The notes under the pieces are model-generated. The model saw nothing but the letters and a program-made list of their open reading frames with translations. It ran no database searches and was not told the DNA's origin. The position numbers were made by a program, and so were the translations under genes. From Paenibacillus donghaensis (GTDB taxonomy: Bacteria; Bacillota; Bacilli; Paenibacillales; Paenibacillaceae): a DNA stretch of 64,000 nucleotides. Below are positions 6,830 through 63,551 of this stretch, one piece after another (the stretch's first letter is position 1; the number at the start of each line of letters is the position of its first letter). Location: assembly GCF_002192415.1 (NCBI RefSeq), contig NZ_CP021780.1:7626001-7690000 (forward strand), in the 5' to 3' direction.

Positions 6830-7810
6830 ATGCCGGAAGGCCGGGTGAAGCAGACAGTGATATGGAGCATTATATTAATAGCGGTATTGGTTATTCTTGC
6901 CGGAGTGGTCACGTATGCGGGATTTTTCTTCTACGGGGTAGCTATAAAGCGGGCGCCGAAGGAATTTCTCAGCAAAACTCCGGATTTAAAGGTTGACCCT
7001 CCGGTAGCGGGTGCATCGTGGGGGGAAGGCAAGGACTGGGTCGCCCGGCATGACCTGGATAAGGTGGAGCTGATCTCGGAGGACGGTTTGAAGCTGCAGG
7101 GCTATTTTATCGCTTCGGAACAGGCTAAGGGACGTACAGTGATTGTGGCCCACGGCTATTCCGGCAAAGCCAAAGACATGGGGGCGTACGCGAAGCTATA
7201 TTACGAGAAGCTTGGCTATAATGTGCTGCTGCCGGATGCCAGAGGGCATGGCGAAAGCGCAGGCAATTATATTGGTTTTGGCTGGCCGGAGCGCCGGGAT
7301 TATCTGCAATGGATTCATTATGTGATGGAACGTACGGGGCCACAGGCGCAGATTGTACTGCATGGGGTATCCATGGGAGGCGCGACGGTGCTTACAACCT
7401 CGGGTGAATCGCTGCCGTCGCAGGTGAAGGCTATTGTGGCGGATTGCGCCTTTAGCTCGGTGAAAGCGCAGCTTGCCTATCAGCTGAAAAGAATGTATCG
7501 TCTGCCAAGCTTTCCGTTCGTGCAGATTGCAAGCCTGGTTACCCGTCTGAAGGCAGGGTATTTCTTCGGTGAAGCCTCTGCCATGAAGCAGGTGGGCAAG
7601 GCCAAAGTTCCGATTCTATTTATTCATGGGGACGCGGATACATTCGTGCCATATGAGATGATGGATGAGTTATACGAGGCCTGCAACAGTCCTAAACAGA
7701 AATATACGGTGGCGGGCGCAGGGCATGGTCTGGCCTATGATACGGATAAAGGGGAATATGCCCGCAAAGTAACTTCTTTTGTGAATCAATATGTAAAAAG
7801 TAGCCCTTAA
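6830..7810 (+). CDS. Membrane-anchored alpha/beta hydrolase
   Basis: This is a serine hydrolase of the YqkD/BD-FAE-like alpha/beta fold with an N-terminal membrane anchor (about residues 8-38). The nucleophile elbow is GVSMGG (Ser181), preceded by the oxyanion segment VIVAHGYSG; the acid Asp lies in HGDADTFVP and the catalytic His in GAGHGLAYD. Substrate is unknown; peptidase-like and esterase members both occur. The ATG at 6830 lacks a good ribosome binding site. The in-frame GTG at 6845 has GGAAGG five bases upstream and would give a cleaner signal anchor, so it may be the true start. It is monocistronic, followed by a strong terminator. Confidence 0.85.
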   Translation: MPEGRVKQTVIWSIILIAVLVILAGVVTYAGFFFYGVAIKRAPKEFLSKTPDLKVDPPVAGASWGEGKDWVARHDLDKVELISEDGLKLQGYFIASEQAKGRTVIVAHGYSGKAKDMGAYAKLYYEKLGYNVLLPDARGHGESAGNYIGFGWPERRDYLQWIHYVMERTGPQAQIVLHGVSMGGATVLTTSGESLPSQVKAIVADCAFSSVKAQLAYQLKRMYRLPSFPFVQIASLVTRLKAGYFFGEASAMKQVGKAKVPILFIHGDADTFVPYEMMDELYEACNSPKQKYTVAGAGHGLAYDTDKGEYARKVTSFVNQYVKSSP

Positions 7811-7819
7811 ATGTAGACA

Positions 7820-7866
7820 GCGCCCGGGTATCCGCAGTATTGCGGTTACCCGGGCGCTTATATTTC
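7820..7866 (+). terminator. Strong intrinsic terminator
   Basis: GCGCCCGGGTATCCGCA pairs almost perfectly with TGCGGTTACCCGGGCGC, followed by TTATATTT. It ends the hydrolase gene. Confidence 0.85.
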
Positions 7867-8166
7867 CACACATGGCAGACGAACCTTAAGGTCCACCATA
7901 GTTCGGTTCCTGTATCGTTATCCCCCGCCGTCCGTGAGTGACGGGTGTCATAATTCCTTGTTTATTTCCAGCAGCCGTGTGGCGAGAGTAATCCTTCCAA
8001 AACGACAAGAACCCTACCTCTCTCTTGCCCTTGCGGCTCCGTGGCCGCGCCAGTGTGAATCGGAATGCTATGTTTGAATTTCATCTCATAAAAAGGAAGA
8101 GTACTGCAAGAAAACGTAAGATTTTGTGTCCAAAATGCCGATAAAAAAGTAAGAGTGAAACATCGG

Positions 8167-51903: not shown

Positions 51904-52033
51904 GACAAAATCAGACATAAGAAAGCTTACTTTTCCAGAGATAACTATACAATATTATACAAATGACCTATAATAAAAAAGTGATGTGAAACTATGCACA
52001 AATGCGAAAAAAGTCCTGTCGAAATGTCTGTAA

Positions 52034-52059
52034 TGTCGCATAAGTGATATTGTACGACA
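52034..52059 (-). other. Recombination site R, exact inverted copy of site L
   Basis: The 26 bases are the exact reverse complement of 50887-50912. Extra TGTC half-sites lie just inside (52017 and 52025), spaced 8-9 bases, and could be accessory binding sites. Confidence 0.8.
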
Positions 52060-52199
52060 CCTAAATTTGATTACGTTATTTTTTTGTCGAAATTTAGCTT
52101 GTTAATACCCTTTATTGAATAAATTTAATCAAAATATTGAGCGGAGTAGTATTTCTTGCATACATACCGGTATATCTATACCGTCCAATTACGGACGTC

Positions 52200-52384
52200 T
52201 GCGGACTCCAGTGACCTTATTTGCTCCCAAGTGACCTATTTTAGAGTAGTTACGGACCGGAAAGACCTTATTTAGTCATAAAGGGTCTACTTAAGGCAGC
52301 TTTTAGACGAATAGGGGCTATGCGGTCCGCAAGGCAGCTGAAACGCTGAAAATCACAGTAATAAGAGCTATAGTGTCCGCAGTG
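52200..52384 (+). repeat. Family C-related repeat, diverged copy C3
   Basis: Two forward units (GCGGACTCCAGTGACCTTAT, TTACGGACCGGAAAGACCTT) and two inverted units (GGGGCTATGCGGTCCGCAA, AGAGCTATAGTGTCCGCAG) in the same order as in copies C1 and C2. Terminal repeats are not recognisable. Confidence 0.6.
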
Positions 52385-52462
52385 ATCGAAGTTTGTTGTT
52401 ATGGAGGTAACGTTTCCCCCTTGGCTCGGTGCCGCTAATAGAATAAAGTCAGTAACAAGCAG

Positions 52463-52598
52463 GAACGGCTGCCTCCTTAGGGATGGCAGACCGTTTCTTT
52501 TTTGAAATATAAGGATTTATATGTTCCACCCTATGAATCATCCTTCTATTTCTCGCTGAAACGCCCCGTCCTATAAAAGGCCGGCGTAGCCGTTTCCA
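52463..52598 (+). repeat. Dispersed hairpin repeat family A, copy A5 (two-hairpin form)
   Basis: First hairpin GAACGGCTGCC...GGCAGACCGTTTC with TTTTTT (also a good terminator, 52463-52503). An AAATATAAGGATTTATATG linker follows, then ATCCTTCTATTTCTCGC and a second hairpin GAAACG...CGTTTC whose inner stem differs in sequence but still pairs. Confidence 0.7.
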
Positions 52599-52686
52599 CT
52601 TGCGATTCCCGGCAGAGCTGCTGCGGAAATTTCGTCTGAACGCTGGCGGATATCCTAAGTATAGCCAGCCGACCTTGGAATTATGG

Positions 52687-52736
52687 TTGACATTGGAAAT
52701 AACGGGTCGTATACTGTGTATATAGATATATACAGT
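52687..52736 (+). promoter_or_regulatory. Promoter and operator of the GntR/ABC operon
   Basis: TTGACA (52687-52692), 17 bases, TATACT (52710-52715). A near-perfect 24-base dyad, ACTGTGTATAT-AG-ATATATACAGT, spans 52713-52736, covering the -10 end and transcription start. It is well placed as operator for the YtrA-type GntR repressor encoded in the operon. Confidence 0.7.
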
Positions 52737-52808
52737 AAGCACAGAGGCATAAACAGTATACACACACTTCAGCCATCTGCTGAAGAAATTGTGAAAGTGG
52801 GTAGAAAC

Positions 52809-53537
52809 ATGAGAACGGTAAAGGATGCCTGGATGATGGTGCAGAGCGAATACCGCGGCAACAAGCTGAAGCTGGTTTGGGCTTCACTATTCTCCATTTT
52901 CTATATGGGATATATAGCCTTCTTCGTCGGCATTATGATGAACGAAATAGTTCAGAGCAATGAAGGGCATATGGCTGTTGACATTATGCTGCTATCCATA
53001 ACGCCGCTGATGGGATTCGTGCTGAACCGGAGTGCTTTTAAGTATTGGTCAGAGGACTCGTACACCCGGATGCTTGTCTATTTCAAATCCTTGCCGATAC
53101 CGGCGACTGTCATCCTCTGTAAAAGAAAAATTATGAGCGTAATCGCCTTCTCAATTAATGGCACGCTCTGTTTCGGTCTCATCTATGCTTTCAGCAAGAA
53201 TATGAGGGCAGAAATGGATCTGGGAGATTACATCGCGTTTACGATCACCTGGATTGGATATGGATTAATCGTCACCGGCTTATACATTACGTTCGAGCTG
53301 CTCTTCAGCGGCAAAATATACTTGGTTCTGACCTTAGCTGTCTTGATAGTGGCCTTTGGGGTGGCCTTTCTGGTCCAGATGGGCGGTGGGAATCTATTCT
53401 TGTATACGATACTCTGCTCGCAGGAATGGGGGCTGCTCTCACCGCTGATGTGGGGCACGCTGCTGGTGGGAATGGCATCGGTGCAGGTGTTCTCCAAATG
53501 GACGATCCACCGATTGAAGAGCAGGGATCTGCTATGA
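52809..53537 (+). CDS. ABC-2 type membrane protein, first gene of GntR/ABC operon
   Basis: This is a 242-residue integral membrane protein with about six helices, likely the permease partner of the following YtrB-like ATPase. The ATG at 52809 (MRTVKDAWMMVQSEYRG) fits the start of ABC-2 permeases; the frame upstream runs through the operator, so longer versions are rejected. The substrate is unknown. Related ytr-type operons respond to cell-wall antibiotics. Confidence 0.75.
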   Translation: MRTVKDAWMMVQSEYRGNKLKLVWASLFSIFYMGYIAFFVGIMMNEIVQSNEGHMAVDIMLLSITPLMGFVLNRSAFKYWSEDSYTRMLVYFKSLPIPATVILCKRKIMSVIAFSINGTLCFGLIYAFSKNMRAEMDLGDYIAFTITWIGYGLIVTGLYITFELLFSGKIYLVLTLAVLIVAFGVAFLVQMGGGNLFLYTILCSQEWGLLSPLMWGTLLVGMASVQVFSKWTIHRLKSRDLL

Positions 53538-53583
53538 GAGCCGGACATAGCAAGACTGTCGCTTGGCGGGGTGGGGGGTAAAT

Positions 53584-53979
53584 ATGTGGATTCCAGTACA
53601 GATCAATGAGAACAGTGCAGAGCCGCTATACCACCAGATTGAGACCCAGCTTCGTTCCCTGATCATCAGCGGTGCCATCCCGGAAGGAACCTTGCTTCCA
53701 TCGATCCGTGAATTTGCCGGTGATCTCAAATGCAGCGTAATTACAGTCCGCCGGGTCTATCAGGATCTGGAGAATGAAGGACTTCTGCGAACCAGGCAGG
53801 GCACTGGTACCTTTGTTTCTCATGTAGGGACCGGGGCTATGGAGGGCTATAAGCAGGAAGCTATAACCAAAGCCCTCGAAGCAGCGGTCGATACGGCAAT
53901 GTCCGTACAGAGTGACAAGGCGGAGATCATCAGAATATTCCTGGAAATTGTCGAACGAAAGTATAACGAATTGAAATGA
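53584..53979 (+). CDS. GntR family regulator, YtrA subfamily
   Basis: This is a 131-residue regulator. The N-terminal winged helix-turn-helix (PLYHQIETQLRSLI...LPSIREFAGDLKCSVITVRRVYQDLENEGL) is followed by GTGTFV and a short C-terminal dimerisation helix rather than a ligand domain, which defines the YtrA subfamily. Such repressors bind long dyads like the one at 52713-52736 and control the ABC transporter genes around them. GGGGGG precedes the ATG; its 3' end overlaps or abuts the next gene. Confidence 0.88.
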   Translation: MWIPVQINENSAEPLYHQIETQLRSLIISGAIPEGTLLPSIREFAGDLKCSVITVRRVYQDLENEGLLRTRQGTGTFVSHVGTGAMEGYKQEAITKALEAAVDTAMSVQSDKAEIIRIFLEIVERKYNELK

Positions 53980-53996
53980 AAGGCGGCGCCGCTGAT

Positions 53997-54926
53997 ATGG
54001 TCCAGATGGCAATTAAACTGCAGAATGTTAGGAAGCTACGGCGCAATAAGACGCTTGGGCCGCTTAATCTGAATCTGCCGGCAGGTTATATTACCGCTCT
54101 GGTCGGTCAGAACGGCTCGGGCAAGAGTACCTTGCTGCAGATGCTGCTTCAGCTGAACTACCCGGATGAAGGCAACATCGTCTGGTACGAGAGCAAATAT
54201 GTAAATGAGCTTCCGATAGAGCTGCGCCAATCGATAGCTTATGTGCCGGAGATTTCCCAGAAGGAAGAGGATCAATGGACCGCTGAGCATGCAGCTGCCT
54301 TCCGCAGCCATTGGTATCCGGATTGGGACAAACGTTACTTCGAGGAGCTGCTTGAGAAATTCGAGATGCCGCGCAATATTCAGCTGCGCAAAGTGTCGAA
54401 GGGGGAACGCCGCAAGTTTGAGATTGCCGCCGCGCTGGCTGGGCGTCCCAGGCTGCTCATTCTGGATGAGCCTTCCTCGGGGCTGGACCCGTTCTCCTGG
54501 AAGATCATGCTTGAAGCTCTAAGGCATTACATGGATGAAACCAATGCCACGATCATCATGTCCAGCCACAATGTAGAGGAGGTCCGGCGGCTGGCCGATT
54601 ATATCGTGCTGATTCATCAGGGGCAGCTGATGGGCATGGCAGACAAAGACAGCTTGTTCGGCTCCTGGAGCGAAGTATGGGTCCATGCCGCTGTGGAAGA
54701 GGAGTTGGCTGAGCTGGCAGCGGAGCTGCCGGGCGCGATCCAGTTTGCGATGGAAACGCCGGGTGTAGCTTCTTTTAAAGTACAGCAATTCCATTCCTTG
54801 GAGAAACGGATTCAGGATTTGGGCGTAAAGGTAATCAAGAGTCGCAGCTTGGAGCTGGATGAAATTCTAGGGTTATGGACACAGGGACACCGTCCGGTAT
54901 TGATTGATCAGAAGAGAGGGGACTGA
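53997..54926 (+). CDS. ABC transporter ATPase (YtrB-like)
   Basis: This is an ABC ATPase with Walker A GQNGSGKST, a degenerate signature VSKGERRK, Walker B LLILDEPSSGLD and switch SSHNVEE. The altered signature is common in YtrB-like ATPases paired with YtrA regulators. The C-terminal third is an accessory domain. An ATG at 53976 overlaps the GntR stop and is an alternative start; the ATG at 53997 has AAAGGCGG upstream and is preferred. Confidence 0.82.
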   Translation: MVQMAIKLQNVRKLRRNKTLGPLNLNLPAGYITALVGQNGSGKSTLLQMLLQLNYPDEGNIVWYESKYVNELPIELRQSIAYVPEISQKEEDQWTAEHAAAFRSHWYPDWDKRYFEELLEKFEMPRNIQLRKVSKGERRKFEIAAALAGRPRLLILDEPSSGLDPFSWKIMLEALRHYMDETNATIIMSSHNVEEVRRLADYIVLIHQGQLMGMADKDSLFGSWSEVWVHAAVEEELAELAAELPGAIQFAMETPGVASFKVQQFHSLEKRIQDLGVKVIKSRSLELDEILGLWTQGHRPVLIDQKRGD

Positions 54927-54929
54927 AGT

Positions 54930-55832
54930 ATGGAAGCACTGAAACTGGAAAGCGTAGTGAAGCAATACGGAGACAAAACGGCAGTGAACGGAATCAGCCT
55001 GAATGTGGGGCAAGGGGAGATTTATGGTCTGCTTGGCGCCAACGGCGCCGGTAAAACAACGACGATGCGTATGGTGCTGGGTCTTATTTACCCGGATGAT
55101 GGGAAGATCTTGTACAACGGTAAAAGCTTCAACAGCGAGCTTCAGCAGGTTATGGGCTACCTTCCTGAAGAACGCGGACTGTATCCCAAGGTGAAGATCA
55201 ACGAACAGATCATCTATCTGGCCCGTCTGCGGGGAATGTCGGCCAGTGAGGCGGATAAGAGCCTGCGCTACTGGCTGGAACGTTTCGAAGTCCCGGAATA
55301 CTACAATAAGAAGATTGAAGAGCTGTCCAAGGGGAACCAGCAGAAGATGGGCTTTATCGCCGCCGTGGTCCACAAGCCGCAGATTCTGATTCTGGATGAA
55401 GCCTTCAGCGGACTTGACCCGGTCAACGTAGAGCTGCTTAAAGGGACAGTCAAAGAACTGAGAGATCAAGGCACAAGCATCTTGTTCTCGACCCACCGGA
55501 TGGAGCATGTCGAGGAGCTGTGCCGAAATATCACGATCCTGGACCGTTCCAACACAGTCGTGCAGGGAGATATCCAGCAGATCAAGAACGGCTATCCGCG
55601 TGAGCAGATCATGCTGCGGACCGTAGGTGAAGTAACTGGACTGCAGTCGGTGCCTGGCGTAACTTCGGTGCAGAAGCAGGAACGCGGATACCTGGTAGGC
55701 ATAAGTGAAGTGAGCGCGGCGCAGCGGGTTCTGCAGCTGGCGATTGGTCAGAGTGAAGTAGAGCATTTCGAGATCAAGGAACCAACGTTAAACCAAATCT
55801 TTATCAGAGCGGTGGGTGAATCGAATGAATAA
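54930..55832 (+). CDS. ABC transporter ATPase (NatA/YhaQ-like)
   Basis: This is a 300-residue ABC ATPase with Walker A GANGAGKTT, signature LSKGNQQK, Walker B ILILDEAFSGLD and switch STHRMEH. The PEERGLYPKV loop and the C-terminal FEIKEPTLNQIFI region match the NatA/YhaQ type that pairs with NatB/YhaP permeases for sodium or drug extrusion. The next gene is such a permease, overlapping by eight bases. Confidence 0.87.
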   Translation: MEALKLESVVKQYGDKTAVNGISLNVGQGEIYGLLGANGAGKTTTMRMVLGLIYPDDGKILYNGKSFNSELQQVMGYLPEERGLYPKVKINEQIIYLARLRGMSASEADKSLRYWLERFEVPEYYNKKIEELSKGNQQKMGFIAAVVHKPQILILDEAFSGLDPVNVELLKGTVKELRDQGTSILFSTHRMEHVEELCRNITILDRSNTVVQGDIQQIKNGYPREQIMLRTVGEVTGLQSVPGVTSVQKQERGYLVGISEVSAAQRVLQLAIGQSEVEHFEIKEPTLNQIFIRAVGESNE

Positions 55833-57117
55833 GATGGGGACAATTATCGGGTTTACTTTTAAGAATAAGGTTAGAACGAAATCCTTTCTGGTGACAACCT
55901 TGATTCTAGTGCTGCTGATCACCGTGGGGATGAATATTCCTTATTTGATTAAAGTGTTTCAAGGGGACGATGCTTCCAGCAATGGTATACAGATTGGAGT
56001 AATTGCTGAGGAGAATAATGCGCTGGCCGGCTTGTTGAAGGCTTATGTACAACCCGAGACCGATGAACTGGAGCAGGTTACCGTCAATACTTATCCATCG
56101 GTAGAGGATGCCGGACTGAAGAAGGCTTTGGATGAAGAGACGATTGAGGGTTATATCGCTTTTGCCGAACCAGCTGGGGAAGGGATTCCTCCGGTTACCT
56201 ATTATAGCAATGATGGAGAGATGAACGGCAGCGTACGCATCTTCCTGCAGAACGCGCTCCAGCAGGCCAATACCCAGCTGATTGTCGGCGATAAGCTGAC
56301 ACAGGAGCAGGTGGCTGCGATGTTTGCTCCCGTTCAGATCGGCACACAGCAGCTCCAGACTGACGGTACTGACAACGGGGCAACTGCTGAGGAGTCCGCA
56401 CCAATCATTAACTATGTCATTGTCTATGTGCTGCTGATTCTATTCTTCATGTCTACCTTTATGACAGGGAATATGATTGCTGCAGAGGTCACTTCTGAGA
56501 AGAGTTCGCGGATTATGGAAATTCTTATCACGAGCGCATCACCGCTGGCGCAGATGTTCGGTAAGGTTATAGGCATTTTTCTGGTCGGTATGCTTCAGAT
56601 CGCAGTGATCGCACTGACCGTAGCAGCTAACCTTATGTTGCCGCATAATTCCACAATTCTGACTGATTTCAATATCGACCTGAGCCAGATGAATATGAGT
56701 CTGCTGATATATGGTTTGGTGCTATATGTGCTTGGTTATTTCTTGTATGCCCTACTGTACGCTGCTGTTGGTTCCATTGTCAGCCGGACCGAGGATCTGG
56801 GCCAGGCGATCATGCCGATTATGATGCTTGGTTTCGCCGCTTTCTATATTCCGCTGTTGAGCATTTCCAGTCCAGATACCATGCTGGTCAAAGTAGCCAG
56901 CTTCGTTCCGTTCACTTCGCCGCTGACGATGCTGCTGCGCATTGGTGTGGGGGATGTGGCCTTCTGGGAGATCCTGCTGTCGCTGGGGCTGTTGCTGGTT
57001 ACGATCTTCTGCTTCGGCTGGCTGGCCGCCAAGATCTACCGTACCGGCGTGCTAATGTATGGCAAACGCCCTACCATTAAGGAACTGAGAAAAGCGATGA
57101 AAGCTTACAAGATATAG
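55825..57117 (+). CDS. ABC-2 permease (NatB/YhaP-like)
   Basis: This is a 430-residue membrane permease. One N-terminal helix is followed by a large extracytoplasmic domain (about 45-190), then five or six C-terminal helices; MIAAEVTSEKSSRIMEILITSASP is the typical cytoplasmic coupling segment of NatB/YhaP permeases. With the preceding ATPase it forms an efflux pump for sodium or an amphiphile. The ATG at 55825 is preferred to a GTG nine bases earlier. Confidence 0.86.
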   Translation: MNKMGTIIGFTFKNKVRTKSFLVTTLILVLLITVGMNIPYLIKVFQGDDASSNGIQIGVIAEENNALAGLLKAYVQPETDELEQVTVNTYPSVEDAGLKKALDEETIEGYIAFAEPAGEGIPPVTYYSNDGEMNGSVRIFLQNALQQANTQLIVGDKLTQEQVAAMFAPVQIGTQQLQTDGTDNGATAEESAPIINYVIVYVLLILFFMSTFMTGNMIAAEVTSEKSSRIMEILITSASPLAQMFGKVIGIFLVGMLQIAVIALTVAANLMLPHNSTILTDFNIDLSQMNMSLLIYGLVLYVLGYFLYALLYAAVGSIVSRTEDLGQAIMPIMMLGFAAFYIPLLSISSPDTMLVKVASFVPFTSPLTMLLRIGVGDVAFWEILLSLGLLLVTIFCFGWLAAKIYRTGVLMYGKRPTIKELRKAMKAYKI

Positions 57118-57150
57118 AAATCATATATCTCATAAGAGGAGTAGATTACG

Positions 57151-57339
57151 GTGAGTAAAAAAAATCAAAATATGATGTTTCTTGGAATATGCGCTTTGAA
57201 TATGATTTTGTTCGGTATCCTTATGGATACGAATGGATCCACTGTACGTGATTACTTTCAGGGATTCGTGGTCGGCATCAATGGAGTGGCCTTCTTCTTA
57301 ACCCTGTGGAGTCTGGCGAAGGAACGTAAGAGAGCATAA
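57151..57339 (+). CDS. Small membrane protein, last gene of GntR/ABC operon
   Basis: This is a 62-residue protein with two helices (MMFLGICALNMILFGILM and GFVVGINGVAFFLTLWSLA) and a basic tail KERKRA. The GTG start follows GAGGAG. The family is not recognised. Its 3' half (from 57223) and the terminator behind it recur at 62647-62813, at the far edge of the AT-rich island. Confidence 0.65.
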   Translation: MSKKNQNMMFLGICALNMILFGILMDTNGSTVRDYFQGFVVGINGVAFFLTLWSLAKERKRA

Positions 57340-57389
57340 CGGGCAAGAAAGCTACAGAACAGCCGCGGCGGATGCCGCGGCTGTTTCTG
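57223..57389 (+). repeat. Left 167-bp direct repeat bordering the AT-rich island
   Basis: This covers the 3' part of the 62-aa gene plus its terminator. The copy at 62647-62813 is identical apart from one visible substitution (TACGTGATT versus TACGCGATT) and has the same length. The two copies are in the same orientation, 5424 bases apart. Confidence 0.93.
57359..57388 (+). terminator. Terminator of the GntR/ABC operon
   Basis: ACAGCCGCGGC and GCCGCGGCTGT pair perfectly around GGAT, followed by TTTCT. An identical copy stands at 62783-62812. Confidence 0.85.
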
Positions 57390-57415
57390 GTAGAGATCAA
57401 ATAAGGAGAAATATC

Positions 57416-57553
57416 ATGATAATTGATCTATCCCATATCGTTCAAGACGGCACGCCACCGTATCCAGGCGACACTGAGACCCTCATGGTTTACAGTAAAA
57501 GGATACACAAGGATTATTATAATAATGGCATCTTTCGCAGCAAAAATCGGTAG
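57416..57553 (+). pseudogene. Truncated cyclase (kynurenine formamidase-like) remnant
   Basis: The ATG follows AAGGAG and encodes MIIDLSHIVQDGTPPYPGD, the conserved N-terminus of the cyclase/arylformamidase family (normally about 200 residues). The frame stops after 45 codons and nothing homologous follows. It lies just inside the left 167-bp repeat, at the edge of the AT-rich island, so it marks a recombination junction. Confidence 0.7.
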
Positions 57554-57622
57554 GTAAGCCTTGATGTAGCTGGGCAAGACGAGGTCCAATACTCAGCTTG
57601 TTCGCACCGAAAGTTGAGTATG

Positions 57623-59269
57623 CTAAGAGTGAGAAAAGTCCGTGTAGAGATTTCTATCTAAGTTAATAATCTCATCACATGTATCTTTTATGGCACTATC
57701 ATGTGATACAATTATAATAATTTTATTTTTTTTGATTTCAGTAATGTGATCAATAAAAGTTTTTCTACTAAGAGCATCAAGAGATGCTGTGGGTTCGTCA
57801 AATATCATTACATCCGGATTCTTTAACATTTGCCTGACAATCGATATTTTTTGCTTTTCACCACCAGACAAGTTGGTCGTATTTTCATTCATATTGCTAT
57901 TAATTCCATTAGGGAGCCTTTCTATAAAATCATTCAAATAAAATTGACTTATTAAAAGCTCCATATTTTCATGATTCATATTATCTAATAATATATTTTT
58001 TGCCACAGTATCATATAAAAGTATGGGATTTTGTTCTGTGACACCAATCTTATTAAGTCTAATTGAACTCATATTAAGATTCTTAATATCTTCATTATTG
58101 AATAAAATAGAACCGCCATGTTCATTTATGTAAAGACCTAAAATTAAACTTAACAATGTACTTTTCCCCGAACCATTCTCTCCTGCTAAACAATATATTT
58201 TTCCTTTTTCAAATACAAATGAACTTTTTTCAAAAATAGTATTTTGTTTATAGGCAAATGTAACATCCCTAAATTCAATTGAATCAATTTGTTCCATAAC
58301 TTTTTCACCGTCTTCAATAATCGGTATAGATAAAATTTCTTGAAGCCTCATGTAAGATACTAATATTTCCTGATAATTTTTGCTTAAATTGAAAAAGAAT
58401 CTTGTTGAACTTATGAGCATATTGAAATAATTTATTAGTATTGTAAAAAAGCCAATAGTAAGATTGCCTTTCACAACTTCTATTCCGCCAACTATGAATA
58501 TCGATATTTGAGCAAATGTTGACATAATGTTATCGAAACTTGAAAATATATACGATATTTTCTGATAAGAATATACTTTAGGAAGGAATTGGTCGAAAGC
58601 ATGTTTCAATTTCTCGTAAAAATAACCATTATATGAATGGGTTTTTATAAAACGGACATTCTTCAATTGTTCATTGTAGCTTGAAAAGAAGTGACTTTGA
58701 GATTCTTTATATTCCATTGTTTTAGTGTATAATGGATTTTTTAAAATTTTGTATAATAATGTATATATTATTATGAGAAATAAGAAAACAATAGCAATTT
58801 TAACATTCGATTTTATCAAGACTAAAAAAGTAACTAGAAATATACTCGAATTCACTATGATGGAGCCAATTATACTAATACTAAAAGTTATAATTTCATT
58901 AGAATCATTATTTATTCTTTGATTTAGGTAAGCTACATCACTATTCTCAATAAATGAAATTGGTAATGATTTCACATGTTCGATAACCATAACATTTAAC
59001 TCGAATGATGCATTAGTTTGAATTTTTATCAATAATTTATTAACTAAATAACCTACTACTACACTTATTAATGATAATGAAAATAGTATAAAACAATAGT
59101 AAAATAACTCTTCCAATGAACCGCCGATTATAAGAGTGTCAACAAGTTTTCCACTAAACAGTGGTAACACAAGTGATGATAGACTTGTAACAATAACAAG
59201 AGTTACATAAACAATTAACAATAAACGATGCTTGAATATATATAGCTTACAAAAATTGAAAACTTTCAT
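57623..59269 (-). CDS. ABC transporter ATP-binding/permease protein (peptide exporter)
   Basis: This is a 548-residue fused type I ABC exporter. Six helices (about 1-310) precede the ATPase with Walker A LAGENGSGKST, signature NLSGGEKQK, Walker B DVMIFDEPTASLD and switch IVSHDSA. There is no N-terminal peptidase domain, so leader removal must be done otherwise. It is the last gene of the RiPP operon and probably exports the modified peptides or provides immunity. The coding sequence is strongly AT-rich compared with flanking chromosome genes, indicating transfer. Confidence 0.85.
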   Translation of the reverse strand: MKVFNFCKLYIFKHRLLLIVYVTLVIVTSLSSLVLPLFSGKLVDTLIIGGSLEELFYYCFILFSLSLISVVVGYLVNKLLIKIQTNASFELNVMVIEHVKSLPISFIENSDVAYLNQRINNDSNEIITFSISIIGSIIVNSSIFLVTFLVLIKSNVKIAIVFLFLIIIYTLLYKILKNPLYTKTMEYKESQSHFFSSYNEQLKNVRFIKTHSYNGYFYEKLKHAFDQFLPKVYSYQKISYIFSSFDNIMSTFAQISIFIVGGIEVVKGNLTIGFFTILINYFNMLISSTRFFFNLSKNYQEILVSYMRLQEILSIPIIEDGEKVMEQIDSIEFRDVTFAYKQNTIFEKSSFVFEKGKIYCLAGENGSGKSTLLSLILGLYINEHGGSILFNNEDIKNLNMSSIRLNKIGVTEQNPILLYDTVAKNILLDNMNHENMELLISQFYLNDFIERLPNGINSNMNENTTNLSGGEKQKISIVRQMLKNPDVMIFDEPTASLDALSRKTFIDHITEIKKNKIIIIVSHDSAIKDTCDEIINLDRNLYTDFSHS

Positions 59270-59384
59270 ATATTATAATCCCCGCTTTTGAGACGTCATT
59301 TGTCTAAATACTAAAACAAGTAAAAGGTGAAAACGGAGCGTAGTTTCCACCGATTTCACCCACTATTGATGCAGAAATATTTCC

Positions 59385-60722
59385 TTATGTTACAGCATGT
59401 ACCTTTGGGTCCAATGTATCATCCACATATCTTAAAATTTGTTTTTCAAGAACTCCCTTTATCTTGAAGCACCCCTTTGAGTGGTAGCTTCCTGTCTCAT
59501 TATAACTGACAACTCCACAGCCCCCACCACAGGACGGTAAATAAGCACACTGTTTACAGTCAACATTGTCTAATGGATTTTTAGACATCCAATCAAAAAA
59601 CGCATATTTAATATTTTCCAATATTCCTTCTTCATTTATCTGTCCAATCATATGCTTTTCATCACCAGCATGCTCCCAACATTTATACACATCACAATTT
59701 GGAGTGACAGTATATTGATTGTCGCCATAAAGTCCACAATACAACCATTTTTGACTTGGTCTAACAAAATTTTTGAATCCTTGCTTTTCAGCAGCAATCC
59801 ATAATTTTTCAAGCACATCACCTATATCACTTTCGGGAATACAATTACCTGAATAAGCTGAACAGGCAGCCGTGGAACCACGAACAATTCCAAAATCGAC
59901 TGTGCAGTTCACTAGATTCTCACCGTTAAACCCAATGTACTCTAACAACTCATATGTCTCAGATAAATTAGTTTTATCCACATTGATTCTTATAACAGTT
60001 TGTATTGAATGTTGTTTTTCATTAATCATTTTCAGGACCTTAATAATATCGTTAAAGGAACCACGCCCACCCTTATACATTCTCCGTGTATCATGAATTG
60101 CTTCAGTACCATCAAGAGTTATTTGTAGCATCTGACAATTATATGTTTGAAGTTTTTCAACAATTTCGTATGTTAATAATGTTCCATTGGTAATAATACT
60201 ACTTGTTAAATTAATATCATGTTGTAAACAAAAACGTTTCAAATTATCTAATATATAGAATCCTACATCAATATTTATTAAGGGCTCACCACCGAATAAA
60301 TTAATAGAGATATTTTTCACATTTTTACTAGTGGCCTCATTGACGATAAATCGTATGTAATTGTCAGCGTTCTCTATTTTCATTGATGTTTTTTGAGAAC
60401 CTGCCCCTTCATAACAATACACACAGTTAAGGTTACAGGCCCATGTTAATAAGACAGTTGACGAGATGGAGCTATTCGAAAATTTTTGCTTATTATGAAA
60501 ATATGTAAAAAACCTATTCTCATCGATTTCATCATTTACTACAATGCCATAGTCAACAAAAAGCTTGAAAGTATCCTCATCAAAACCTTGTACATTTTCA
60601 CATTGAATCTCACTGGCAATTGAATCATCAATCGTGAAACTATGGCCACTTAGTGTGTTGAATAAAATATGCCCATTGTTATTTCTGTTCGGAAGAAGCA
60701 GGTTGAATTTCGACAGCTTCAT
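59385..60722 (-). CDS. Radical SAM/SPASM peptide maturase
   Basis: This is a 445-residue radical SAM enzyme predicted to modify the Cys-rich precursors encoded just upstream. The N-terminal 80 residues form a small RRE-like region. The SAM cluster motif is C96-NLN-C100-VY-C103. LFGGEPL and ITLDGT are typical of the core barrel. The C-terminal SPASM domain has Cys329, Cys343/348, then the exact C-x2-C-x5-C-x3-C array (389, 392, 398, 402) and a final Cys418, for two auxiliary 4Fe-4S clusters. Such enzymes make thioether (sactipeptide or ranthipeptide) or other crosslinks. AGGAGGG precedes the ATG. Confidence 0.9.
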   Translation of the reverse strand: MKLSKFNLLLPNRNNNGHILFNTLSGHSFTIDDSIASEIQCENVQGFDEDTFKLFVDYGIVVNDEIDENRFFTYFHNKQKFSNSSISSTVLLTWACNLNCVYCYEGAGSQKTSMKIENADNYIRFIVNEATSKNVKNISINLFGGEPLINIDVGFYILDNLKRFCLQHDINLTSSIITNGTLLTYEIVEKLQTYNCQMLQITLDGTEAIHDTRRMYKGGRGSFNDIIKVLKMINEKQHSIQTVIRINVDKTNLSETYELLEYIGFNGENLVNCTVDFGIVRGSTAACSAYSGNCIPESDIGDVLEKLWIAAEKQGFKNFVRPSQKWLYCGLYGDNQYTVTPNCDVYKCWEHAGDEKHMIGQINEEGILENIKYAFFDWMSKNPLDNVDCKQCAYLPSCGGGCGVVSYNETGSYHSKGCFKIKGVLEKQILRYVDDTLDPKVHAVT

Positions 60723-60865
60723 TTATAGCCCTCCTAAGTATTGTATAGTTTAACTCGTTGTTTAAGGTTTGCCCTCGACCATCCATGATATATGTAGAGA
60801 TCGAGGGTATAGATTAATAATGTGACGCACTACATTTTGTGAAAAATATCACTTTAAGTTCGATA

Positions 60866-61009
60866 TTAATTAAGCATGCAATAAAAAAAACTACACAAAC
60901 TATCTTTTATACAAAGATCTAATGGACAGAAGCCAGCTACAATTACTTCCCCTCCAAAAGGTTTATGTAGTGATGAATTATAAGCAGATCCAACATATTC
61001 AACTTTCAT
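60866..61009 (-). CDS. Second RiPP precursor peptide (47 aa, four Cys)
   Basis: This is a short frame four bases downstream of the main precursor, with ATG at 61009 and AAGGTG upstream inside the previous gene. It shares with the main precursor the N-terminal motif Y5-V6-G7-x2-Y10 at identical positions, and its Cys residues (28, 33, 39, 44) have the same 5-6-5 spacing as the first four Cys of the other peptide, each set starting CP. A Gly-Gly at 19-20 may mark the leader end. These coincidences make it very likely a genuine paralogous precursor. Confidence 0.7.
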   Translation of the reverse strand: MKVEYVGSAYNSSLHKPFGGEVIVAGFCPLDLCIKDSLCSFFYCMLN

Positions 61010-61013
61010 TCTT

Positions 61014-61277
61014 CTACACCTTGCTTCCTGGTGCTTCAAAAGGTCCTGGGAGTGGGGTAAGATTAACCCAGCACGCGTCTGCTGCACAAAAATTTAGTAA
61101 ACAGGCATTTGTTGCACATGCTGCAGTACCACAAGCATCAAGTCCACAAGATACTGCACCACAAGCTGCTGCTCCACATGCATTCCCGCCACATGGTCCG
61201 TTTAAAGCACAGACATACCCTGGACAAGCAGTAGCATTGGGTGTTACGTAACCTCTTCCTACATAGGTAGCTGACAT
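61014..61277 (-). CDS. RiPP precursor peptide with eleven evenly spaced cysteines (87 aa)
   Basis: This is a small peptide with leader-like start MSATYVGRGY and a core of Cys at 18, 23, 29, 34, 39, 44, 49, 54, 59, 64 and 69: from residue 29 on, one Cys every five residues, mostly in the pattern ACGxx. The C-terminal tail (70-87) is Pro-rich. GGAGGAAGG precedes the ATG. It is followed by a second precursor, a radical SAM/SPASM enzyme and an ABC exporter on the same strand, so it is the substrate of that maturase. The gene is GC-richer than its neighbours because of Gly/Ala/Cys codons. It matches no named class with certainty. Confidence 0.82.
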   Translation of the reverse strand: MSATYVGRGYVTPNATACPGYVCALNGPCGGNACGAAACGAVSCGLDACGTAACATNACLLNFCAADACWVNLTPLPGPFEAPGSKV

Positions 61278-61810
61278 AAGTATCCTTCCTCCTAATTTAA
61301 TGTTTTACTGAATTAATCGCTGTCACTTAAAGGCAGCTTTTTAAAGAGATACTGTTTTTTGTGAAGATTCAATAAGTGGACAACTTTTATTAGATTAACA
61401 ATGCACCTCCACCTCCATTTTTTTCTTAATTATAATAATAAGGATACTCAAGAGTATCCTTATATTATTTCATTCAAATCTACTGCTGGAGTTAAGAAGC
61501 TAGAATTATGTATTGGAAAAGCTCAGAGTTCTAACTTTAGTAGAAAGTGCTTACTAAATATTTGAACTAGTAGAATGTACCTAAGGCCTCTTTGCAAAAA
61601 TATCATCACATCCATTTAAAGTCAATTAATTACATTATAATCCTGGAATTAATTAGCTATTATTCCATCGAATGTTCACATTATATCCTTGAATCACCTT
61701 GAAATTTGTTCCATATAAATCCATATTATATAGATAATGATCCATACATTATATTGTTGTTAGTTGGATTACGAAAATTAACATTTCGAAAAAAAGTTAG
61801 GGGGAAGGAA
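61278..61810. other. Divergent control region of the RiPP operon and DUF2812 gene
   Basis: An inverted repeat AAGGATACTC-AA-GAGTATCCTT (about 61440-61461), extended by AT pairs, lies in the middle and could be operator or terminator. AT-rich -10-like boxes (TATAAT) occur near it on the minus strand. A purine-rich GGAGGTGGAGG stretch (minus strand, about 61405-61415) lies in the leader without a convincing gene. Confidence 0.45.
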
Positions 61811-62446
61811 ATGATGAAAATATTCAGGATTTTTTTCAGTGATTTGGACAAACAAGAAAATTGGTTAAATGAAAAGGCAAAACAGGGTTTGAGACTAACT
61901 AAAACCACAAAATTATTTTATTATTTCGAGCAATGTGAGCCTTCAGAATTTACTTACAAGGTTGAATTGATTACTGATAGATCGCTGCAAGAACAAGTAG
62001 AATATCGGCGGTCATTGGGTGAGGATGGGATTAGAACTTTTACTAAAAACTATGCTTTTGGAAGAATAGCTTATGGCAAAGCTACTCTCAATTTGGCAGG
62101 GAAAATTAGAGTGAGAACAGCTCCAGGTACCATTAACTCAGAGATTCTTATTTTAGAGAAGAAAACAGATGGGAAATCCTTCGAATTGTTCACTGATAAA
62201 AACGATAAAATTTCTTATTATAAAAAAGTCAGAAATACTTTCACACTTTCTATTATTGGAATTCTTATTGTGGTTATTGTGAGCAAACCACGAGGGCTAA
62301 ACTTTTTAAATAATGAACAAGTTCCAATTGTAATTTCATATGTAGTTAAAGGTTTAGGCATTGCAATATGCATACCTCTCCTAATAACCGTTTCAAAAGC
62401 TATGTATCGTTTACGGCAGCTAAAAAAAGAGACCACACCTGAATAA
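61811..62446 (+). CDS. DUF2812 domain protein
   Basis: This is a 212-residue protein with an N-terminal DUF2812 region (MKIFRIFFSDLDKQENWLNEKAKQG in shape; the motif W-L-x3-A-x2-G-x-R-L is visible) and two C-terminal helices. Such proteins usually sit beside PadR-type regulators; none is here. In this setting it could sense the peptide or give immunity. AGGGGGAAGG precedes the tandem ATGs at 61811 and 61814. The coding sequence is AT-rich like the rest of the island. Confidence 0.72.
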   Translation: MMKIFRIFFSDLDKQENWLNEKAKQGLRLTKTTKLFYYFEQCEPSEFTYKVELITDRSLQEQVEYRRSLGEDGIRTFTKNYAFGRIAYGKATLNLAGKIRVRTAPGTINSEILILEKKTDGKSFELFTDKNDKISYYKKVRNTFTLSIIGILIVVIVSKPRGLNFLNNEQVPIVISYVVKGLGIAICIPLLITVSKAMYRLRQLKKETTPE

Positions 62447-62480
62447 GGAAATCCGAATGTTTACACTCCATAACAACAAT

Positions 62481-62645
62481 TCAAAAACGTTTGTCTGTCG
62501 TTCCACGTTTGAAGGAATAGTAACAGGCCAGCGTTAATTTAAAGCTATCAATTACAAAATCATTGTCTTTCTTCGCATTCGCATTGTCGAACTTCTGCAG
62601 GATGTCATAACGCGTGTTGCGCTGCGCGGGGATCTTTGGTACCTT
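62481..62645 (-). pseudogene. Possible 3' gene fragment at the right island edge
   Basis: A minus-strand frame ending near 62481 reads RYDILQKFDNANAKKDND... and continues up to the right repeat, where the upstream part is cut off. It looks like the tail of a real protein but is not recognised. Weak evidence. Confidence 0.3.
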
Positions 62646-62646
62646 G

Positions 62647-62813
62647 ATGGATACGAATGGATCCACTGTACGCGATTACTTTCAGGGATTCGTGGTCGGC
62701 ATCAATGGAGTGGCCTTCTTCTTAACCCTGTGGAGTCTGGCGAAGGAACGTAAGAGAGCATAACGGGCAAGAAAGCTACAGAACAGCCGCGGCGGATGCC
62801 GCGGCTGTTTCTG
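62647..62813 (+). repeat. Right 167-bp direct repeat bordering the AT-rich island
   Basis: A copy of 57223-57389 including the terminator (62783-62812). It is a 3' fragment of the 62-aa gene without start codon or ribosome binding site, so it is not expressed as such. Confidence 0.93.
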
Positions 62814-62996
62814 TTACGCATAAGCTGGGTTATAAGGCATCAGGAGTGAACGTATACCGTATTGCCCCAACGTGTCTCTGTATCGGGTATAGTATTCGAG
62901 CTCCTTCTTCTCGCCGAGGGCGAGTGAGAGGGATTCATAGGTAGATAAAGAGTACGGGGGGGAAGATGGGAAGGTTTCAGAGGGGGATTCTTCCAT
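62814..62996 (-). CDS. Hypothetical small protein (60 aa)
   Basis: This is a soluble, Ser/Pro-rich then charged small protein, MEESPSETFPSSPP...ending MPYNPAYA. AAAGGTG lies close to the ATG. It is convergent with the repeated terminator, the place it would have had next to the GntR/ABC operon before the island was inserted. The family is not recognised. Confidence 0.4.
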   Translation of the reverse strand: MEESPSETFPSSPPYSLSTYESLSLALGEKKELEYYTRYRDTLGQYGIRSLLMPYNPAYA

Positions 62997-63114
62997 AACA
63001 CCTTTATATTAATAGGCAGAATGGACAGAGTTGTAACACGGGCAAGCAGGTTTACAATTTTATTGAGTTCGTGTATGTTAATGGGAATTCCATGACATGA
63101 AATGAGATGATGTA

Positions 63115-63291: not shown

Positions 63292-63551
63292 AAATTAGTT
63301 GCGAAACTGCATCTAATTAGCCAAATTTTTCTGTTTTGGAGGAAATAAGTGCGAATACGCATCTATTTTGGATGTTTGAGCATCCCAGGAGTAATTTACT
63401 CGAAATTAGTTGCAGATTTGCACTTATTCGCCTGCTGATGAACGTTTCGGCTGAATTTAGTTGCAGTTTCGCATCTAATTATTCTGAAGGTTCCAGGGCA
63501 GTACTCTAAAACCCGACTGAACCTAAGTAGTAACCACTTTCGCAACTAAAT
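63292..63551 (-). repeat. Dispersed repeat family B, copy B5 (reverse)
   Basis: On the minus strand it starts GGTTACTACTTAGG (63522-63535) and runs through the four units and the linker, very similar to B3. A further half-unit, ACTTTCGCAACTAAAT, abuts it outside at 63536-63551. Confidence 0.78.

Follow-up and report, generated by a model that had tools for sequence, protein, structure and literature searches.

A CefA/CefB peptide cluster of Paenibacillus donghaensis with a probable second precursor and a putative chain of Cys-to-Asn/Asp thioethers

Organization of the cef locus

A 64,000-nucleotide stretch of the Paenibacillus donghaensis genome (NZ_CP021780.1, positions 7,626,001 to 7,690,000), here called the window and numbered from its first letter, carries on its minus strand a gene cluster for a ribosomally synthesized and post-translationally modified peptide (RiPP) that belongs, by sequence, to the CefA/CefB family. 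The genes are transcribed in the order cefA (61014-61277), encoding a precursor peptide of 87 amino acids with 11 Cys; cefA2 (60866-61009; the name is ours), encoding a probable second precursor of 47 amino acids; cefB (59385-60722), encoding a radical S-adenosylmethionine (SAM)/SPASM peptide maturase of 445 amino acids; and an ATP-binding cassette (ABC) exporter gene (57623-59269) encoding 548 amino acids, with a stem-loop (60772-60807) between cefA2 and cefB. The cefA and cefB genes adjoin on one strand, which is the precursor-maturase pairing of a CefA/CefB system. The last open reading frame (ORF) matches the Pfam transmembrane (PF00664) and ATPase (PF00005) domains, in line with the exporter that an earlier note, made from the sequence alone, had placed after the maturase; peptidase C39 was not among the 17 Pfam families listed for it at E up to 1.

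Both genes are named in NCBIfam, CefA as 'Cys-every-fifth RiPP peptide' and CefB as 'Cys-every-fifth radical SAM/SPASM peptide maturase'. CefA scored 48.4 bits against NF038108 (cut-off 30), its residues 5-75 aligning with positions 1-65 of the 65 in the model, and CefB scored 641.4 bits against NF038107 (cut-off 600) over model positions 1-440 of 444; homologues of CefA include P0002, P0129-P0139 and P0147, among others. NF038108 also exceeded its cut-off in one of 14 control genomes (Deinobacterium chartae), and its score alone is therefore no proof of a cef system. On these matches the cluster is a new member of an already named family, so that the suggestion of a possibly new product class in the earlier note has to be given up. 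An open-access full-text literature search found no paper on a product of the CefA/CefB family and no chemistry for it.

The CefA precursor

The Cys residues of CefA are located at positions 18, 23, 29, 34, 39, 44, 49, 54, 59, 64 and 69; nine of them (29-69; 61071-61193) stand exactly five residues apart, as the earlier note had counted, and the pair 18/23 is likewise separated by five. When the residues of CefA were shuffled 200,000 times and scored for periods 2-10, the longest Cys ladder had seven members, which occurred 7 times, and a ladder of nine never appeared. The leader motif YVGRGY (residues 5-10; 61248-61265) corresponds to the family consensus YIGNGY, in which, according to an alignment of 18 sequences, Y5 and G7 are invariant and N8 (Arg in the window CefA) and Y10 are present in at least 90%. 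An AGGAGG resembling a ribosome-binding site precedes the cefA ATG. Because the period is five, a pentapeptide-repeat solenoid was also considered for CefA and not retained; the AlphaFold model was of very low confidence throughout (mean predicted local distance difference test score, pLDDT, 41) and speaks neither for nor against a fold of the modified peptide.

A probable second precursor

The cefA2 frame, which the earlier note had missed, begins 4 bases beyond the cefA stop and encodes the leader EYVGSAY and the core CPLDLCIKDSLCSFFYCMLN. Among 2703 ORF starts in the window (at least 30 amino acids), only cefA and cefA2 show the leader motif Y[IVLM]Gx[AG][YF] close to their N-termini, and translating the window in all six frames gave no further occurrence of this pattern. 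Three of the four Cys of CefA2 are followed by Asn or Asp at the third position (p 0.0013), and its core terminates in C-M-L-N. Neither PHROGs nor NCBIfam gave a match for CefA2 at E up to 1, NF038108 included, and its assignment as a precursor, which we consider probable, therefore rests only on the leader, the position and the CxxN/D unit. If real, it would be a small natural substrate with four Cys. The stem-loop that follows it has a folding energy of -17.4 kcal/mol (z -3.79), which was equalled in none of 200 shuffles, and is possibly a processing or attenuation site.

The CefB maturase

The complete cluster motifs reported for CefB in the earlier note were borne out by an alignment of 44 sequences, the one from the window included. 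The CxxxCxxC motif of the radical SAM cluster (C96, C100 and C103; 60414-60437) is kept in all 44, as are six of the seven SPASM Cys (C329, C348, C389, C392, C398, C402 and C418; 59469-59738), the seventh, C392, being present in 43. The AlphaFold model of CefB (pLDDT 89.1) is closest to the SCIFF maturase CteB, its best fold match, with which it aligns from residue 4 onward, the N-terminal domain included. This domain (residues 1-80; 60483-60722) is modelled as three strands followed by helices and is probably a RiPP recognition element (RRE) that binds the leader. Ranthipeptides are marked by a thioether, made by a radical SAM enzyme, between Cys and a carbon other than the alpha carbon. The features expected of their maturases, namely a SPASM enzyme, a leader-binding domain and three cluster motifs, were all found, the N-terminal domain from the model only. 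As a side observation, residues 287 and 294 form a conserved CX6C (43 and 44 of the 44 sequences) in a low-confidence loop between the core and the SPASM domain.

CefB was also compared with 73 NCBIfam models. Among the best 25, the ranthipeptide-type models PapB, QhpD and SCIFF gave 147.8, 108.7 and 102.5 bits, and the two alpha-thioether models GggB and RumMC gave 72.0 and 60.7 bits; model lengths vary and all five scores are below the cut-offs of the respective models. The higher scores with the ranthipeptide-type models support the proposal in the earlier note of a RiPP cluster with a thioether-forming SPASM maturase.

The CxxN/D register

Spacers between Cys were counted in 25 sequences with a YIGN leader and 21 with other leaders, comprising 43 of 58 profile matches (including P0001 from the window), the precursor of locus L035 and both precursors of locus L040. 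Ten profile matches were left out because they nearly duplicate P0002 or are truncated forms of it (P0003, P0124-P0128, P0133, P0142, P0143 and P0146), three as devoid of the usual N-terminus (P0144, P0149 and P0160) and two as unlikely relatives (P0161 and P0171). Leader classes were assigned by simple patterns and, for the spacer counts, by manual reading. A stricter set of 18 CefA sequences drops seven of the 25, namely both L040 precursors, P0148, P0152, P0154, P0164 and P0166.

Of 168 CxxxxC units in the 18 sequences, 106 have Asn or Asp at +3 from the first Cys, one at +4 and none at +1 or +2; Ala accounts for most of the remaining +3 residues (55 units). The 25 YIGN-leader sequences gave the same picture, with Asn/Asp at +3 in 136 of 210 four-residue spacers and at +4 in one. 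At a period of five, position +3 from one Cys is position -2 from the next, and irregular spacers were examined for this reason. In the YIGN-leader sequences, Asn/Asp was at +3 in 17 of 30 five-residue spacers (with 3 at +4, which here equals -2, 2 at +2 and 1 at +5), in 27 of 31 six-residue spacers, which come from 6 sequences and have none at -2, in none of 3 nine-residue spacers, and in 22 of 25 cases beyond the last Cys. For the other-leader sequences the corresponding counts at +3 were 152/223 (four-residue), 9/20 (five-residue, 3 at -2), 0/1 (seven-residue), 0/10 (eight-residue), 9/16 (nine-residue, 4 at -2) and 14/20 beyond the last Cys. Asn/Asp of the core, where present, stands nearly always at +3 from a Cys, and on balance the conserved distance is the one from a Cys to the Asn/Asp following it. 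As a control, the upstream small ORF was scored in two of four PapB-type loci of the genus; in L058 all 6 Cys had D/E/N at +4 and 2 of the 6 had it at +3, and in L056 it occurred at +4 for 2 of 4 Cys and at +3 for none.

In the window CefA, seven of the 11 Cys have Asn/Asp at +3, forming the pairs C23-N26, C29-N32, C44-D47, C54-N57, C59-N62, C64-D67 and C69-N72; the other four are followed at this position by Tyr (C18), Ala (C34 and C49) and Val (C39). The sequence suggests, accordingly, fewer than the 'up to ten crosslinks' of the earlier note.

A putative chain of Cys-to-Asn/Asp thioethers

A register tied to the preceding Cys points to thioethers from Cys to the Asn/Asp at +3, and the simplest reading of CxxN/D is a donor-acceptor unit. 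We regard it as somewhat probable that the locus is a CefA/CefB RiPP cluster, probably with two precursors, in which CefB builds a chain of such thioethers. The RRE-like domain of CefB would bind the YVGxxY leader of CefA and CefA2; CefB would generate a radical on the Asn/Asp side chain and join this residue, probably through its beta carbon, to the Cys at -3, repeating the reaction for one unit of the ladder after another; and the ABC protein would export the product. In the product, small CxxN/D thioether rings would follow one another in a chain, no more than three of them in CefA2 and seven in CefA, where 7 links of a possible 11 would amount to a loss of 14 Da and the remaining four Cys may be free, disulfide-bonded or otherwise linked.

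CefB might instead form thioethers to other positions, linking Cys either, in the manner of sactipeptides, with the alpha carbon of a small residue or with the preceding Asn/Asp (N-x-C), the Asn/Asp at +3 then being kept, for example, for turn formation or enzyme recognition. The N-x-C form accommodates the Asn/Asp of the four-residue spacers of the YIGN-leader sequences equally well, and the few Asn/Asp at -2 in their five-residue spacers and in the nine-residue spacers of other-leader sequences lean the same way. It is at odds with the six-residue spacers and with the residues beyond the last Cys, while the alpha-carbon form has against it the lower scores of CefB with the alpha-thioether models, and we consider this explanation unlikely. 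CefB could also make a different change, such as epimerization or carbon-carbon links, leaving the Cys as thiols or disulfides in a ladder with a metal-binding or structural role. This would leave the Asn/Asp at +3, the lack of Ser/Thr at that position and the higher ranthipeptide-type scores unexplained, and seems quite unlikely to us.

With Cys-to-Asn/Asp(+3) thioethers, the CxxN/D unit turns a Cys-rich peptide of unassigned chemistry into a prediction of the atoms joined and the mass lost, and both the study of processive radical chemistry and peptide stapling would gain a useful example in a maturase that proceeds along an extended, uniform ladder.

Comparison with known systems

In freyrasin (PapA/PapB), many units linking Cys to acidic side chains are made by one SPASM enzyme, according to PMC9413430. 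The multiplicity of units from a single enzyme is shared with what we propose for cef, whereas the units differ, being CxxxD/E in freyrasin and CxxN/D in cef. The PapB model exceeded its cut-off in 4 of 100 genomes of the genus, and CefB shares 23-28% identity with the four proteins of PapB type found there; its PapB score of 147.8 bits compares with a cut-off of 340, and a freyrasin-type assignment was rejected.

In SCIFF precursors, six Cys fall within forty-five residues and a Thr, the identity of which is disputed, serves as acceptor (PMC8326336); CteB has seven SPASM Cys (PMC10352776). CefB resembles CteB, the thermocellin maturase, in fold, N-terminal domain and the seven SPASM Cys. It differs in its score against the SCIFF model TIGR03974 (102.5 bits, cut-off 425), and CefA, with 11 Cys in 87 residues, differs in Cys number and length; a SCIFF assignment was rejected as well. 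The earlier note had set the ladder apart from both the SCIFF and the freyrasin patterns, and motif and model score now separate it from each.

NxxcA/NxxcB, as presented in PMC8326336, forms a beta thioether between Cys23 and Asn20. To that extent it shares with cef an Asn acceptor over a three-residue step, but the Asn precedes the Cys in a single ring, whereas in cef the Asn/Asp follows the Cys and the units repeat, so that the NxxC type was not adopted.

The next best models for CefB were the TIGR04463 and Clo7bot (TIGR04334) maturases, with 229.2 and 206.3 bits (cut-offs 525 and 600). Small Cys-rich ORFs also lie beside CefB-like enzymes in relatives; in L009, L010, L012, L015 and L016, inspected by eye, they contain ladders of at most three Cys five apart (three in L012).

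Distribution and relatives of the family

CefB exceeded its cut-off in one of 394 genomes of the family to which the window belongs and was detected at E 1e-100 in one of 398 genomes of its class, in both cases the genome of the window itself. In the class of an Alkaliphilus metagenome-assembled genome (MAG), two of 391 genomes had a match at E 1e-100, with 594.9 bits in the MAG and 573.7 bits in G904, each slightly short of the cut-off of 600; the MAG was the only one of 198 genomes in its order, and G904 the only one of 32 in its family. A large protein set contained 218 proteins matching CefB at E 1e-100. Among the 120 listed, the nearest full-length relative is P0005, with 61% identity, and P0086 (347 amino acids) is 64% identical over 77%; the sources, among the matches listed, include Thomasclavelia, a Eubacterium MAG, a Lachnospiraceae MAG and Paramaledivibacter. 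No CefA core was found at E 1e-7 in 299 genomes of the phylum of the Alkaliphilus MAG, a limit that was too strict, having missed the cefA-bearing MAG itself (best E 1.6e-7).

CefB loci with genomic context were the window, L035 (Alkaliphilus MAG NORP52) and L040 (G904). The window resembles the NCBIfam system in that both genes exceed the curated cut-offs, and it has the order precursor, CefB, ABC gene in common with L035 and L040, with 2.3 kb separating precursor and maturase in L035. The exporter sequence is not conserved, its ABC counterparts in the two related loci being 27-30% identical to it over partial length. The window differs from its relatives in the short four-Cys probable second precursor, whereas L040 has two long tandem CefA-like precursors (7356-7730 and 7749-8117). 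Their spacers mostly alternate between 4 and 6 residues, so the CefA family is not strictly 'every fifth'; the L040 precursor scanned against NF038108 gave 25.3 bits, below the cut-off of 30. In L035, among ORFs of at least 25 amino acids, the leader pattern matched cefA and one ORF antisense to cefB, and no second precursor was found.

Manual reading of the profile matches revealed the Cys-every-fifth core behind leaders of at least three kinds (YIGNGY, double-glycine and NHLP), the NHLP leader model TIGR03793 matching P0159 and P0167 below its cut-off. Seven of the eight other-leader sequences scanned (P0151, P0153, P0155, P0162, P0167, P0170 and P0173; P0159 falls below) reach the NF038108 cut-off, and the NCBI family therefore already spans other leaders. 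Tentatively, and with slightly more doubt than confidence, we propose that Cys-every-fifth peptides may form a distinct ranthipeptide subclass of CxxN/D beta-thioether units, with a few to roughly twenty units per chain, carried by several unrelated leaders (short YIGNGY, double-glycine and NHLP) and processed by different SPASM enzymes, of which the window locus would be a two-peptide version. Separately, P0155 (204 amino acids, on a contig of 1700 bases) has in a single frame the C-terminus of a SPASM maturase resembling TIGR04463 followed by a Cys-every-fifth core, possibly a natural fusion of enzyme and precursor.

Genomic setting and origin

The guanine-plus-cytosine (GC) content is 25-40% per 500-base step in 57,500-62,500, mostly 45-54% in 53,000-57,500 and 49% just after the segment; lower values also occur outside it (38% at 63,000 and 41-44% at 52,000-53,000). 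The segment is flanked by direct repeats of 182 bp on the plus strand (57211-57392 and 62635-62816), overlooked in the earlier note, which are identical at 176 positions and each consist of the 3' end of a 62-amino-acid ORF and the hairpin after it. A single crossover of incoming DNA at the end of this ORF would leave such a repeat. From the left flank (matched to 57116) to a glutaredoxin gene (from 63685) the distance is 6.6 kb in the window, 3.1 kb in the congener G162 and 7.5 kb in the congener G184, where the interval contains other genes and some unread bases; the site is therefore variable. No cef gene of the size of CefB or the ABC protein was found between these flanks in G162 (ORFs of at least 60 amino acids) or G184 (at least 80), and a search of both whole genomes gave no CefB above the cut-off. 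The cef cluster was probably acquired.

Phage and plasmid origins were also considered and rejected. With CefB as a single query, two viral-contig stretches matched a pattern and neither was a CefB relative; with a CefB alignment (80 of 287 loci listed), the top match among those listed was 27% identical over most of the length and others reached up to 34% in short segments. Five plasmid records were 26-30% identical to CefB, and no match to CefA was found in phages or plasmids.

A short frame (MIIDLSHIVQDGTPPYPGD..., 57416-57553) that ends in an early stop adjoins the left copy of the repeat on its cluster side and looks like a remnant of a cyclase-type gene. That the cluster is a decaying insertion yielding no product in this strain would agree with the low GC, the flanking repeat, this adjoining frame and the lack of CefB at the matching place in the two congeners. 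Against decay, which we judge to be very improbable, stand four uninterrupted reading frames, two precursors that still have the leader motif and CxxN/D units, and a CefB in which the Cys invariant among its relatives are present.

Other features of the region

An Rfam scan gave a single match (23.9 bits, gathering threshold 114), judged to be due to chance, and a promoter scan with 30 predictions against 26.1 expected was left unused. About 160 bases upstream of cefA lies a further stem-loop (61438-61463, minus strand) that is terminator-like on both strands. Between the repeats, on the strand opposite to the cef genes, a DUF2812 protein is encoded at 61706-62446 (PF11193, 91.7 bits). Finally, 63293-63551 belongs to an interspersed repeat, about 200-260 bp in length, that may be a miniature mobile element and recurs at 16 further places in the same genome with 84-90% identity, in addition to shorter pieces.

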